Origin: a virus
Length of the DNA stretch: 28,303 nucleotides
Strand: one strand, 5' to 3'
Virus record (IMG/VR): IMGVR_UViG_3300030419_002158
Location: 1 to 28,303 of that record
Shown: positions 8,507 through 12,458 of the stretch, in pieces
Numbering within the stretch: the stretch's first letter is position 1
Layout of the letters: the number at the start of each line of letters is the position of its first letter
Notes under the pieces: generated by a model
The model's database searches: none
What the model was told of the DNA's origin: nothing
The model's input: only the letters and a program-made list of their open reading frames with translations
Made by a program: the position numbers and the translations under genes

Positions 8507-10168
8507 TTAAGCCGGAATTCCACCAGCATAAAGATTGTCAGAGAAATTTTCTTCCTCTGTCGCAGTAAATTCTGGAAGTGTTGAACTAACTTCATCACCA
8601 ACAGGAGTCATACCTCCTCCTTGTGCTACTGGTACTACCATCGTTTTTGAACTACCAGATTCATATGACGCATACTTACTGACAGTTGAAGGTACCTCTT
8701 TCTCAACTGCAACAACCACATCAACAGTTTTGTATCCAACTATCCTTCCTCTCCTATTGTAAATGGGTTTACGTTTAGGTTGAACCTCTTTTACAACTAT
8801 TGTTTTTTTCTTTTCCTTAGTATCCTTTGCTCCCACTTCTTGAGGTGTATCATCCTCTTCACTATCAACATTCTCCTTGCCACCAAATATCATATCATAT
8901 ATCAATCCACCTAACGCATCACCCGCAGCACCACCTGCTAAACCTCCTAAGAAAGTTCCTGCTATTGGAATCACACTACCGATCATTGCACCAATCCATA
9001 AACCTAAACCAGCACCAATGGCTTTGAATGCTGCTTTTCCTATTGGTTCTTTAAATACAAAAACATTCAAAGCAAAATCAATTAGTGCTCCAATAAAAGG
9101 AATCCTTTTAACAATAGGACTAATAAAGTTCTTCATAAACTTCAGTCCTGTTTTTGTTCCTTGCTTACCAAGAACAGAAACAATTGCTCTTCTACCTACA
9201 TTTGTTGCCTGACTTCTTGCAAACTTTCCACCCAAACCCTTAACAGCTTGAGTTCCAAATCTTCTCTGAGCAGCACGAGTACCATACCTTTGAGCATACC
9301 TTCTAATTGCTTTTTTACCACCACCTCTTGCAAGTTGTCTTGGAGTAAATCCTCGTACTGCTGATCCCATGTTACGACCAGCTCTGGGTCCAAACATTCT
9401 ACCTAATCCACCACCCCTTACTCCAATCATTGCTGCAATTAATGCAACATTCATTAACTTTGTAAAGACACCTTGGAACTCTTTGAACTTTCTTAATCCT
9501 TCCTCACCAAATGTATCACCAATCTTTTTTTCCAATCCATTAACAGCATCATATCCCTTCTCTATCATCCACGCTATTCCATTAAAGACTTTACCACCCC
9601 AGTTTATCAAAGTGTCTACTGCTCTACCTAAAACAGGAAGTATCTTTGCTATCTTAGGAGCCCAATCCAATAACTTAAGTGCTAACCAACCAAAGATTAA
9701 ATTACCAATAAAATTTTTAAGTTGATCTAAGAATCCCATTTTAGGAAGGGACATCTTCATCCTGGGTTCTTTCTTATCCTTAGGTTTCTTTAATTCAGAC
9801 TCCCTCTCATCCCTCTTCTGTCTTTCCTTTGCTTTTCTCCTACTCTTCGATTGTACCTCATCTAATGCAAGAGATCCTTTTAATAAAGTATCAATCGTAA
9901 TAACACTAGTCTTTATCTGAACTAAAGACCTTGCCATACTTTGGTCCTTAGTCTGAATAGAAGTAGAATCTTCCGTAGGTCTAACAGGAACTAAAGAAGT
10001 CTTAGGTTTAGCAACAGGAAGTTGTCCCTCCTCTTGCATTATATCTGTTACTTTCTCTCTTCTAAGTACTTTATTTTGATTACCTTTACCTCTTCCCAAT
10101 AGTTTATTAGCGGCTACTTTTTTAGCCGCTCCCGATGCCATACTCTTAATAGCAAGTCCTAATGCCAT
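8507..10168 (-). CDS. Tape-measure-like tail protein 1 (gp29 candidate)
   Basis: 553 residues, close to T4 gp29 (590). Order of parts: a basic N-terminus; a highly charged helical stretch (about 100-140, rich in Lys/Arg/Glu); an amphipathic motif LKNFIGNLIFGWLALKLLDW (about 148-167); an Arg/Gly-rich section (GGGLGRMFGPRAGRN and repeats of ARR/QRR); and a long Gly/Ala hydrophobic segment (about 370-420: AIGAGLGLWIGAMIGSVIP, then GGLAGGAAGDALGGLIYD). Such Gly-zipper hydrophobic stretches are usual in tape measures, which enter the cell membrane ahead of the DNA. The neighbouring 463-residue protein shares the N-terminal plan, including the 'F...IFG....KL.DW' motif. Which of the two sets tail length cannot be decided from sequence. 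Confidence 0.62.
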   Translation of the reverse strand: MALGLAIKSMASGAAKKVAANKLLGRGKGNQNKVLRREKVTDIMQEEGQLPVAKPKTSLVPVRPTEDSTSIQTKDQSMARSLVQIKTSVITIDTLLKGSLALDEVQSKSRRKAKERQKRDERESELKKPKDKKEPRMKMSLPKMGFLDQLKNFIGNLIFGWLALKLLDWAPKIAKILPVLGRAVDTLINWGGKVFNGIAWMIEKGYDAVNGLEKKIGDTFGEEGLRKFKEFQGVFTKLMNVALIAAMIGVRGGGLGRMFGPRAGRNMGSAVRGFTPRQLARGGGKKAIRRYAQRYGTRAAQRRFGTQAVKGLGGKFARSQATNVGRRAIVSVLGKQGTKTGLKFMKNFISPIVKRIPFIGALIDFALNVFVFKEPIGKAAFKAIGAGLGLWIGAMIGSVIPIAGTFLGGLAGGAAGDALGGLIYDMIFGGKENVDSEEDDTPQEVGAKDTKEKKKTIVVKEVQPKRKPIYNRRGRIVGYKTVDVVVAVEKEVPSTVSKYASYESGSSKTMVVPVAQGGGMTPVGDEVSSTLPEFTATEEENFSDNLYAGGIPA

Positions 10169-10169
10169 C

Positions 10170-11561
10170 TTATCTTATAAACCCTAACGTCTTAGTCTTA
10201 GGTAAACTACCCCAAGTAGTAGCAAGAAAAGGAGGTATCGCATTTGCTTGAGAGACATTATTACCTCCACCAGCAGCATCCTGTGCGATTGAAGGAGTAA
10301 CTATAACTTCAGTGGAAGGAGGAAGAGGAGGTTCTACTGTTCGTTGATCAAGAGTAGTAGCACCAGATAAAATCATTGGTGTTGAGTTATCAACTGATGT
10401 TACATTCTTAACTAATCCACCACCTTTAAAATAAGAAACCCTATTCAATAAATTATTCTGTACTACTCCACCACCTTCATATCTACCCATAGTTGGTCGG
10501 TTAGTTCCACCACCCATAGAATTCATTGCACTCAACATACCTGCACCAAAAGTATCTACAGCACCTTTACTCATTACAAATTCACCAGCAGTTAATCTTG
10601 CAGGAACTTTATCTACACCAGAAGGACCAGATACAAAACCACCTTGGTTTAATGCTTGGAATCCAGGAGTTCCTTCAAACTCCTTCATATAACCATCACC
10701 AGTAAAAGTTCCCATATTAGGTTCTGCTTTTACATCTGACCATTTACCATCATCATCACCACCTTCTTCACCACCTCCTTCTCCTTCTCCTTCTTTATTC
10801 TTATTCCGATTAAGCATCCATGCAGCACCCCCTATTACAGCCGCTCCACCAACAATAGCAGCAACATAAGGATTAGATGCTATCAATTTCGCAGTTGCTA
10901 TTCCCATCTTAACTATCCACCCAGTCATACTAACAAGAAGAGTAGATATCATTCCACCAAAAGATGTTCCAAATAAAACAACACCAGCAAGTATTGCAGG
11001 CCAATAATCCTTTGTAAAGTTAATTATTGATTCCATCTTCTTCCCATTCGCAGGGTCAGCCCACCAATCTATTAACTTCATAATCACACGACCAAAGATA
11101 ATAGTAGATATAAAATTAATTACCTGATCGAATACACTCTTGACTGGAGAAAGAATCTTTTGTGCTGTACCAGTAAATGCTTTAAAAACTTTTGATTCTA
11201 ATAACTTTTCTCTTTTAGTTCTCTTATCCTTTTCTTCTTCCTGTCCTGCTTTTAATGCTGTCTTCTTATCAAACTCTTGCTGTTTTAATAATGTCTCCTT
11301 AATAGAACCAACACTTGCTGCAATAGATGCAACCATTGATTGTAAACCCTCTTTATTATCTGCAGAGGGAGATAGACTAGCAAGTTTTTCTCCTGTTGTA
11401 ATCTTCTGTGCTTTAATTATATTCTTTAACAGCGTAATCTTTCTTGAATTATTATTAACTTTCTCTTCTAAACCCTTACCTGCAGCAAAAGATGCACCCA
11501 TAAACTTGGATGGATTTATCCCTCTTCTAGTTGTCGATGCTGCTGGGAGTGCTTCAGGCAT
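10170..11561 (-). CDS. Tape-measure-like tail protein 2
   Basis: 463 residues. The N-terminal coiled region (about 30-125) leads to QVINFISTIIFGRVIMKLIDW, related to the motif in the 553-residue protein downstream. Two hydrophobic segments follow (AILAGVVLFGTSFGGMISTL and YVAAIVGGAAVIGGAAWML). The C-terminal part has GGFVSGPSGVDKVPARLTAG and EFVMSKGAVDTFG, a block I know from the C-termini of many phage tape measures ('GG.V.GPG..D.VPA.L..GE.V....AV...G'), followed by glycine-rich turns. It overlaps the gp51-like gene by 8 bases. With gp26 and the gp51-like gene immediately upstream, the order resembles the chaperone-then-tape-measure order of other long-tailed phages. Confidence 0.66.
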   Translation of the reverse strand: MPEALPAASTTRRGINPSKFMGASFAAGKGLEEKVNNNSRKITLLKNIIKAQKITTGEKLASLSPSADNKEGLQSMVASIAASVGSIKETLLKQQEFDKKTALKAGQEEEKDKRTKREKLLESKVFKAFTGTAQKILSPVKSVFDQVINFISTIIFGRVIMKLIDWWADPANGKKMESIINFTKDYWPAILAGVVLFGTSFGGMISTLLVSMTGWIVKMGIATAKLIASNPYVAAIVGGAAVIGGAAWMLNRNKNKEGEGEGGGEEGGDDDGKWSDVKAEPNMGTFTGDGYMKEFEGTPGFQALNQGGFVSGPSGVDKVPARLTAGEFVMSKGAVDTFGAGMLSAMNSMGGGTNRPTMGRYEGGGVVQNNLLNRVSYFKGGGLVKNVTSVDNSTPMILSGATTLDQRTVEPPLPPSTEVIVTPSIAQDAAGGGNNVSQANAIPPFLATTWGSLPKTKTLGFIR

Positions 11562-11736
11562 TAGCGTTTTGCTGTCTTTGTTTTAACTGCTCTTCCTCAA
11601 GATGTGCTTGAAGAAGACCCACATAAATGTCTCGTTCCCAAGGCATCCAATTTTCAATCTCAGTTAGGCTATATTTATGGTACTGCATCAAGGCAAAATT
11701 CAACCTGAAATAATTTTCCAGGCTCATATAAATCAT
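11554..11736 (-). CDS. 51: Small tail/baseplate assembly protein, gp51-like (tentative)
   Basis: 60 residues from the ATG at 11736, or 57 from the ATG at 11727 (MSLENYFRLNF). Helical and charged, with HKYSLTEIENWMPWERDIY and LLQAHLEEEQLKQRQ. Short proteins with this 'MPWER' core next to gp26 are annotated as gp51, baseplate hub assembly catalyst, in cyanophages as I recall; T4 gp51 is far longer (249), so the name is provisional. No Shine-Dalgarno is visible before either ATG. The reading frame is open upstream through the end of gp26 in the -1 frame, and gp26 ends in a T-TTT-TTC slippery site, so part or all of this protein may be made as a gp26 fusion. Confidence 0.65.
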   Translation of the reverse strand: MIYMSLENYFRLNFALMQYHKYSLTEIENWMPWERDIYVGLLQAHLEEEQLKQRQQNANA

Positions 11737-11738
11737 AG

Positions 11739-11752
11739 CTACGCGAAAAAAG
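11739..11752 (-). promoter_or_regulatory. Candidate -1 ribosomal frameshift site at the gp26 end
   Basis: On the minus strand the zero-frame codons are TCT TTT TTC GCG TAG (stop at 11739-11741). The heptamer T TTT TTC fits the X XXY YYZ rule exactly. After a -1 slip the frame reads CGC GTA GCT ATG and stays open through the gp51-like gene to 11554. A 7-bp stem (CCTGGAA with TTTCAGG, 5-base loop) lies about 22 bases downstream, farther than usual stimulators. The P2 tail genes E/E' use the related T TTT TTG. Confidence 0.55.
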
Positions 11753-12458
11753 ACGCTAAGCCCTCAAGTACTACTTCACTCTCAACATTAGTCTTAGGAT
11801 TAGTCACCTTCACTGTATGAGATAACTTAGGCATCGTTGTAAAGAAACTTTCAATCTCCTTGAACTGAGTAGAATTCATCGACTCAAGGAACTCATTAAT
11901 CTCTTTCTTTGTACAGTCCTCAGTTGCCCATACCTCTTCAGCAGTATAGATCTTATCAATACACTGACCAATTAAATCAAAGGACTGATCCATTTGATTC
12001 TTATCATTCACATCAAAATTATTCTTGATGAATTCATTTAATGATGGGTACTTCATCTCCATCATAATATTATCATCAAGTTTAATCTTATTAGTATGCT
12101 CTTCACTCTTCTTGACTTGAATATCATCCAGGTCAATAGTTATTGGTACCTGAGTCTCTTCATCATCAGGACATATAATATTAACTTCAAGTTCTTCTCC
12201 TACCGATTTACCTCTGATATTTAAAAAGAGATATTCAATATCAAAAGTAGGAAGTGTTTCAACCTTTATACCCCTAGTGAGAATACAAGATTTAATAACT
12301 GACTTAATAGCATTTGTAATCTGCTTTGTATTTTCACTCTCCAATGCAAGTACAAGTAACTTCTCTTCCTTAACTAAGAAAGGTCTGTATTGTATTGTCT
12401 TTCCTGTAGATGGCAACTCAAGTTCATAAGTTGGTGTCGCAATTTTTGGTAAAGGCAT
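11739..12458 (-). CDS. 26: Baseplate hub subunit gp26
   Basis: 239 residues, near T4 gp26 (208). The N-terminal MPLPKIATPTYELELPSTGK, then YRPFLVKEEKLLVLALES and IKSCILTRGIKVETLPTFD, are hallmarks of the T4 baseplate family (gp26 type). T4 gp26 acts in assembly of the central hub. The C-terminus ends TCT TTT TTC GCG TAG: the last two sense codons before GCG form the heptamer T TTT TTC in the zero frame, and a -1 slip there continues CGC GTA GCT ATG into the gp51-like gene. The protein is encoded directly upstream of the tape-measure genes, the position of chaperones that use programmed frameshifts in lambda and P2. The start is the first ATG; the gap to the upstream gene is 31 bases. Confidence 0.85.
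   Translation of the reverse strand: MPLPKIATPTYELELPSTGKTIQYRPFLVKEEKLLVLALESENTKQITNAIKSVIKSCILTRGIKVETLPTFDIEYLFLNIRGKSVGEELEVNIICPDDEETQVPITIDLDDIQVKKSEEHTNKIKLDDNIMMEMKYPSLNEFIKNNFDVNDKNQMDQSFDLIGQCIDKIYTAEEVWATEDCTKKEINEFLESMNSTQFKEIESFFTTMPKLSHTVKVTNPKTNVESEVVLEGLASFFA

Follow-up and report, generated by a model that had tools for sequence, protein, structure and literature searches.

The window analyzed here is the whole 28,303-nucleotide stretch of cyanophage DNA in IMG/VR record IMGVR_UViG_3300030419_002158, in which gp26, a gp51-like reading frame, and two tape-measure-like genes follow one another on the minus strand. The 3′ end of gp26 (12458..11739, 239 aa) reads GAG GGC TTA GCG TCT TTT TTC GCG TAG, and the following features were recognized at and around this site.

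11739..12458, minus strand: gp26, the putative short form (TAC-N); Pfam PF12322 (T4_baseplate) E=1.5e-77, phrog_150 E=2.1e-82
11762..11765, minus strand: Shine-Dalgarno (SD)-like GAGG, putative upstream stimulator, ending 10 nt before the heptamer
11745..11751, minus strand: slippery heptamer T TTT TTC in the zero-frame phase X XXY YYZ, from sequence and conservation
11739..11741, minus strand: gp26 zero-frame stop TAG, from sequence
11734..11736, minus strand: ATG usually annotated as the gp51 start, at a position not conserved among representatives
11702..11724, minus strand: stem-loop, possible downstream stimulator, 20 nt past the heptamer, MFE -9.9 kcal/mol, z -1.61
11554..11745, minus strand: −1 extension (putative TAC-C), 63 residues past Phe-Phe, beginning RVAMIYMSLENYF, plus stop; phrog_634 E=1.3e-28
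10170..11561, minus strand: first tape-measure-like gene, 463 aa; phrog_35029 E=8e-62 and weaker tape-measure PHROG matches
8507..10168, minus strand: second tape-measure-like gene, 553 aa; phrog_35997 E=7e-44, phrog_167 (tape measure) E=5e-8

In the −1 frame the window reads TTT TTT CGC GTA GCT ATG..., with no stop until 11556..11554. These readings bear out two claims of an earlier note made from the DNA alone, namely that the T TTT TTC at the end of gp26 obeys the X XXY YYZ rule (11751..11745, in the correct phase) and that the −1 frame is open through the entire gp51-like gene. At the stop rate of gp26's −1 frame, the single-locus chance of 58 open −1 codons is approximately 8e-5. A slip at the heptamer is predicted to join Phe238 to Arg-Val-Ala-Met..., yielding a 301-residue gp26–gp51 fusion with the junction peptide TNVESEVVLEGLASFFR in this phage; unshifted gp26 ends with TNVESEVVLEGLASFFA.

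With respect to domain content, the gp51-like ORF inside the −1 frame comprises 60 codons and corresponds to the C domain only, a domain (phrog_634) that goes by gp51, 'baseplate hub assembly catalyst', in the annotation of relatives. The −1 extension also matches the C-terminal part of the phrog_150 profile (positions 231-280, E=4e-4), which suggests that some phrog_150 members hold both domains in a single protein. The position of the locus is that of tail assembly chaperones. Specifically, gp26/gp51 is directly followed by the two tape-measure-like genes, the first of which overlaps the end of the −1 frame and encodes the presumed client of the chaperones, and in relatives the tail-tube gene precedes gp26.

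Conservation of the slippery heptamer

In the phage collection searched, gp26 matches 674 records, at one place per record. Viral-contig matches to queries from this phage, P-HM1, and pf16, together with annotated regions, gave a set of 204 distinct loci; viral-contig scans with queries from freshwater cyanophage BUCT-ZZ01 and Vibrio phage D481 yielded no usable loci. An in-frame T TTT TTN is present in 202 of the 204 (176 ending in C, 19 in T, and 7 in A). The codon preceding the heptamer's TTT is AGT, GAT, TCT, AAT, GGT, ACT, or GCT, and is thus T-ending for Ser, Asp, Asn, Gly, Thr, and Ala alike. Isolates carrying the heptamer include S-SM2, P-HM1, P-RSM1, MA01, BUCT-ZZ01, pf16, and Ps15, as well as G2, Ahp1, VH7D, D481, phiM12, and Melnitz, so that its spread takes in the Kyanoviridae and phages of Pseudomonas, Stenotrophomonas, Aeromonas, and Vibrio, as well as Sinorhizobium and Methylophilales phages.

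Across 68 divergent representatives, against a background of 71% TTT and 76% NNT, the joint chance of heptamer retention is ~1e-18, a value to be read with the representatives being imperfectly independent. Codon columns 236 and 237 have T as third base in 100% of the representatives, with the Phe237 codon being TTT in 68 of 68, and they are the only such columns among the 22 aligned columns that are near-always NNY; the remaining 20 have 15 to 89% T. An equally conserved pair within gp26, Phe205-Phe206, served as an internal control and shows TTC 39 and TTT 28 at its first codon, followed by TTT 58 and TTC 6 at its second. The earlier note had proposed comparing gp26 3′ ends in this manner, and the outcome is as it anticipated: the heptamer codons are fixed beyond the other NNY columns, and the −1 frame is kept open. 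Taken together, the heptamer signal is far beyond chance, and the comparison indicates that the slip site is kept by selection across relatives.

One could suppose that the T run is conserved solely for the Phe-Phe protein sequence and that the −1 opening is incidental. Phe237 is indeed invariant in gp26 and Phe238 nearly so. Nonetheless, synonymous positions are fixed at this pair and not at Phe205-Phe206, and the conserved domain encoded in the −1 frame occurs fused in T4 gene 51, leaving a pure protein constraint with a negligible probability in our assessment.

The distance from the heptamer to the zero-frame stop is one sense codon in 185 of the 202 loci, eight in 14, and two in 3. As the stop position varies between loci, the fixed feature is the slip site rather than the stop. 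In the metagenomic loci L201, L208, L219, L231, L235, and L242, the gp26 stop lies eight codons past the heptamer and the gp26 tail overlaps the −1 frame, with heptamer and −1 frame unchanged. The zero-frame stop follows the heptamer directly in MA01 (L260, TTT TTC TAG) and Melnitz (L252, TTT TTT TAA), where the short form ends in Phe-Phe.

The −1 frame and its start codons

Wherever the end of the −1 frame is visible in a heptamer locus, 58-70 codons precede its stop, and the −1 relation to gp26 is constant. In the stretch before usable starts, variability is highest at third codon positions and lowest at second positions (1.47 vs 0.80 bits in the start-less subset), a coding-like pattern. 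Moreover, 28 of the 68 representatives have no ATG, GTG, or TTG ahead of −1 codon 16, though these codons are conserved (FFRIxLxHxxLExYYxTNFA). The first −1-frame ATG falls anywhere from codon 4 to codon 28 among the representatives, or is absent, and in Aeromonas phage G2 and metagenomic locus L231 the first 30 −1 codons contain no start of any kind. Since there is no usable early start in those lineages, the whole gp51 domain would be makeable there only via frameshifting. In our phage, the domain is probably not made chiefly from the ATG at 11734..11736, whose position is not conserved.

These data bear directly on the proposal that gp51 is a separate small protein, produced by termination-reinitiation from gp26 and not by frameshifting. 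Several observations are in keeping with it: the gp26 stop and the gp51 start are a few bases apart in the window, TAATG overlaps occur in Vibrio phages D481, 1.255.O, and K364, the heptamer is lost in the Vibrio 1.255.O group, and public records give gp51 as a separate gene or omit it. Reinitiation is, however, hard to reconcile with the start-less yet conserved −1 codons described above, and it leaves unexplained why T TTT TTN is invariant, why the −1 relation never changes, and why the SD-like element is tied to the heptamer and not to the ATG. We accordingly consider reinitiation quite improbable as the general explanation. With regard to the public records, the gp51 frame is unannotated in those of Vibrio phage VH7D (L254), Aeromonas phage G2 (L085), and P-RSM1 (L261), despite the presence of heptamer and −1 frame.

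The earlier note had singled out heptamer loss by synonymous change, or a stop between the two frames, as the pattern in homologues that would speak against a frameshift. Neither occurs in the 202 loci, which cover the Kyanoviridae and most other groups, and the pattern is confined to the Tevenvirinae and one Vibrio group. Within the Tevenvirinae, gp51 is a separate gene; the gp26 ends of T4, Enterobacter phage Ent31, a Tulanevirus, and a Muldoonvirus are without the heptamer, and gp51 in these phages is a separate divergent gene product of ~250 aa. In the Vibrio group of 1.255.O, D504, and K364 (L087 1360-2252, L258, and L259), the −1 ORF is kept and the heptamer is replaced by CTT TTY. Given the TAATG overlap in the heptamer-less 1.255.O and K364, reinitiation may have replaced frameshifting in this group.

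Signals flanking the heptamer

Across relatives, an SD-like GAGG or AAGGG is found 10 nt 5′ of the heptamer. At the GAGG site, the energy of the duplex with the anti-SD sequence averages ~-6.0 kcal/mol, vs +1.8 to -2.6 kcal/mol at most other upstream positions. Codon choice is biased in the same region: the Glu codon at the SD-like site is GAG in 32 and GAA in 12 of 44 representatives, compared with 31% GAG elsewhere in gp26 (p=1.6e-8), and GGG appears at the site mainly after a codon whose last base is not G (Fisher p=0.001), a pattern suggestive of compensation that preserves the purine run. A control with shuffled synonymous codons gave a mean rank of only 0.43 for the SD-like pairing, because the conserved Glu-Gly alone already provides much of the anti-SD pairing and the two are partially confounded. 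In the window, no SD-like sequence lies just 5′ of the gp51 ATG, the only one being the GAGG 25 nt before it, in agreement with the earlier suggestion that the gp51-like gene has no ribosome-binding site of its own.

Downstream of the heptamer, the folding z-score across the 68 representatives peaks in the 45 nt immediately following it (mean -1.84, vs +0.19 to -0.68 in non-overlapping windows). The stem-loop of the window (11724..11702) has 9 pairs, two of them G-U, and in most relatives the stem begins nearer, about 5-10 nt past the heptamer. The structure itself differs from lineage to lineage. RNAalifold, applied to ungapped groups only, found weak covariation in the stem (one pair being 82% paired vs 65% expected) and no common downstream structure in two of four such groups; since the covariation is weak, the position-specific folding z-score was used instead as evidence of structure. 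A stem about 22 bases downstream had been reported from this DNA before. It is real but modest (9 pairs, 20 nt away, z -1.61), and the nearer stem of most relatives had been overlooked; the accompanying remark that it sits farther away than most stimulators holds for this phage, whose best stem starts 20 nt past the heptamer. Of the flanking signals, the downstream stem had been noticed and the upstream SD-like GAGG had been missed.

These signals are also relevant to transcriptional slippage, in which RNA polymerase would slip on the six-T run and generate mRNAs in both frames. In its favor, every locus with the heptamer contains six or seven consecutive T. This is nonetheless short for polymerase slippage, which usually needs a run of nine or so. 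In addition, most loci interrupt the run with C and seven end in A, and the heptamer phase, the SD-like element, and the stem all make sense for ribosomes, such that slippage of the polymerase appears extremely improbable. All three rivals, namely gp51 as a gene of its own, polymerase slippage, and constraint on the protein alone, were rejected on the grounds of start-less conserved −1 codons, ribosome-type signals, and fixed synonymous bases.

Tail assembly chaperones of T4-like phages

Overall, it is very probable from these comparisons that a programmed −1 ribosomal frameshift yields a short (gp26) and a long (gp26–gp51) tail assembly chaperone. We infer slippage at the heptamer, its frequency, and the binding partners; the case for the frameshift comes from conservation, and that for the chaperone role from homology to T4 proteins and from gene order. 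In the proposed mechanism, most ribosomes would read gp26 through to the TAG and release the 239-aa short form, while a minority would be held at T TTT TTC by the GAGG 10 nt 5′ and the 3′ stem-loop. The held ribosomes would slip back by one base, the Phe tRNAs would re-pair, and reading of the 'gp51' frame would give the 301-aa fusion, such that the two chaperone forms would arise at a set ratio immediately before the tape-measure protein that they serve. If they act as lambda gpG/gpGT do, the newly made tape-measure protein would be coated by many copies of the short form, and the C-terminal domain of the rarer long form would bring in tail-tube subunits.

Homology to the T4 proteins is evident for both halves of the fusion. 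The short form and T4 gp26 both match PF12322 and phrog_150. T4 gp51 consists of a gp26-like domain and a C-terminal domain (Pfam T4_baseplate 3.9e-52; phrog_150 positions 13-280; phrog_634 1.2e-23), and in hhalign its N part reached 6e-7 and its C part, aligned to the −1 extension, 1.4e-5. Gene family and short/long logic are therefore shared with T4. However, in T4 the long form has a gene of its own, 51, which is divergent from gene 26, and there is no heptamer, whereas here one locus would give both forms by frameshifting: in this phage gp51 is the C domain only and the heptamer is present. In structural terms, an AlphaFold model of gp26 (pLDDT 85.9) matches T4-like hub proteins in a viral structure library. 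A PDB fold search with this model returned the HK97 tail assembly chaperone 2ob9 as its top two matches, neither of them significant (E=0.89, prob 0.30), so that the link to this fold is only suggestive; a profile search of PDB sequences gave no match.

Among better-known systems, lambda G/GT likewise places a short gene and its −1 extension directly 5′ of the tape measure, and the extension is not a free-standing gene; the lambda proteins have no detectable sequence relation to those described here, and they differ in the heptamer and in that our locus carries a three-part signal with an SD-like element. The idea that gp26/gp51 are the T4-lineage counterparts of lambda G/GT by −1 frameshifting was put forward in the earlier note, and every comparative test that we ran supports it. 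In P2, also a myovirus, E/E' has a poly-T heptamer of the same class before the tape measure, the P2 slippery sequence, as given in the earlier note, being T TTT TTG, unlike the T TTT TTC found here and the T TTT TTT or T TTT TTA of other lineages. E. coli dnaX resembles our locus in having an upstream internal SD (at a spacing of 10 nt), a heptamer, and a downstream stem, but its heptamer is A AAA AAG, the gene is cellular, and its product is truncated rather than extended. The Vandenendeviridae, a different phage family with a different motif, likewise show a conserved open −1 frame: in the tail chaperone frameshift of Pseudomonas phage Adele, this frame is interrupted by a stop in no genome and accompanies a GTTTTT motif (PMC12846349).

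The abstract by Vladimirov and colleagues reportedly describes frameshifting as conserved in several T4-like groups, with T4 using separate genes 26 and 51. A 2016 review had described the G-T frameshift as a feature that long-tailed phages widely conserve, T4 excepted (PMC5009743). According to PMC10885494 and PMC12846349, it was Vladimirov, Gautam and Davidson 2022 (10.1016/j.virol.2021.11.003) who identified the T4-like tail assembly chaperones. Poly-T slippery sequences in TAC-N genes of T4-like phages are mentioned in PMC12846349, citing that work, and PMC10885494 summarizes it as finding that in some T4-like phages a fused long gene accompanies the short one and takes the place of frameshifting. 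The belief in the earlier note that no such frameshift has been described for T4-like phages is therefore wrong, going by these accounts of Vladimirov et al. 2022. As T4-like chaperones and poly-T slip sites have already been published, the gp26/gp51 frameshift is already known in T4-like phages and the present finding is a correct independent rediscovery. The details of the flanking signals may go beyond published work.

We see roughly even prospects for a broader reading of these comparisons, in which the chaperone frameshift of T4-like phages outside the Tevenvirinae would be a cassette of an SD-like element 10 nt 5′, T TTT TTN, and a rapidly replaced stem-loop, with the SD kept by compensating synonymous codons. 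On this reading, the 'gp51' domain would exist in many lineages only as a fusion, and the 'gp51, baseplate hub assembly catalyst' of hundreds of genomes would be no separate gene. The proposed frameshift would account for the production, in abundant marine cyanophages, of both forms of the protein believed to load the tape measure, and would explain why cyanophage 'gp51' has ~60 residues vs the 249 residues of T4 gp51. It would also mean that, in hundreds of public genomes, the C-terminal half of the fusion is annotated as a separate gene or missed. Frameshifting in cyanobacteria could readily be studied with the conserved signal.

In terms of the surrounding genes, the two adjacent tape-measure-like genes of the window (8507-11561, minus strand) are related to one another (BLASTP E=3e-9), and S-SM2 likewise has two adjacent genes at the tape-measure place (766 and 845 aa). 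Between 19779 and 27045, ORF translations resemble, by eye, PhoH, ThyX, glutaredoxin, transaldolase, and two purine-synthesis enzymes, which are typical cyanophage metabolic genes.
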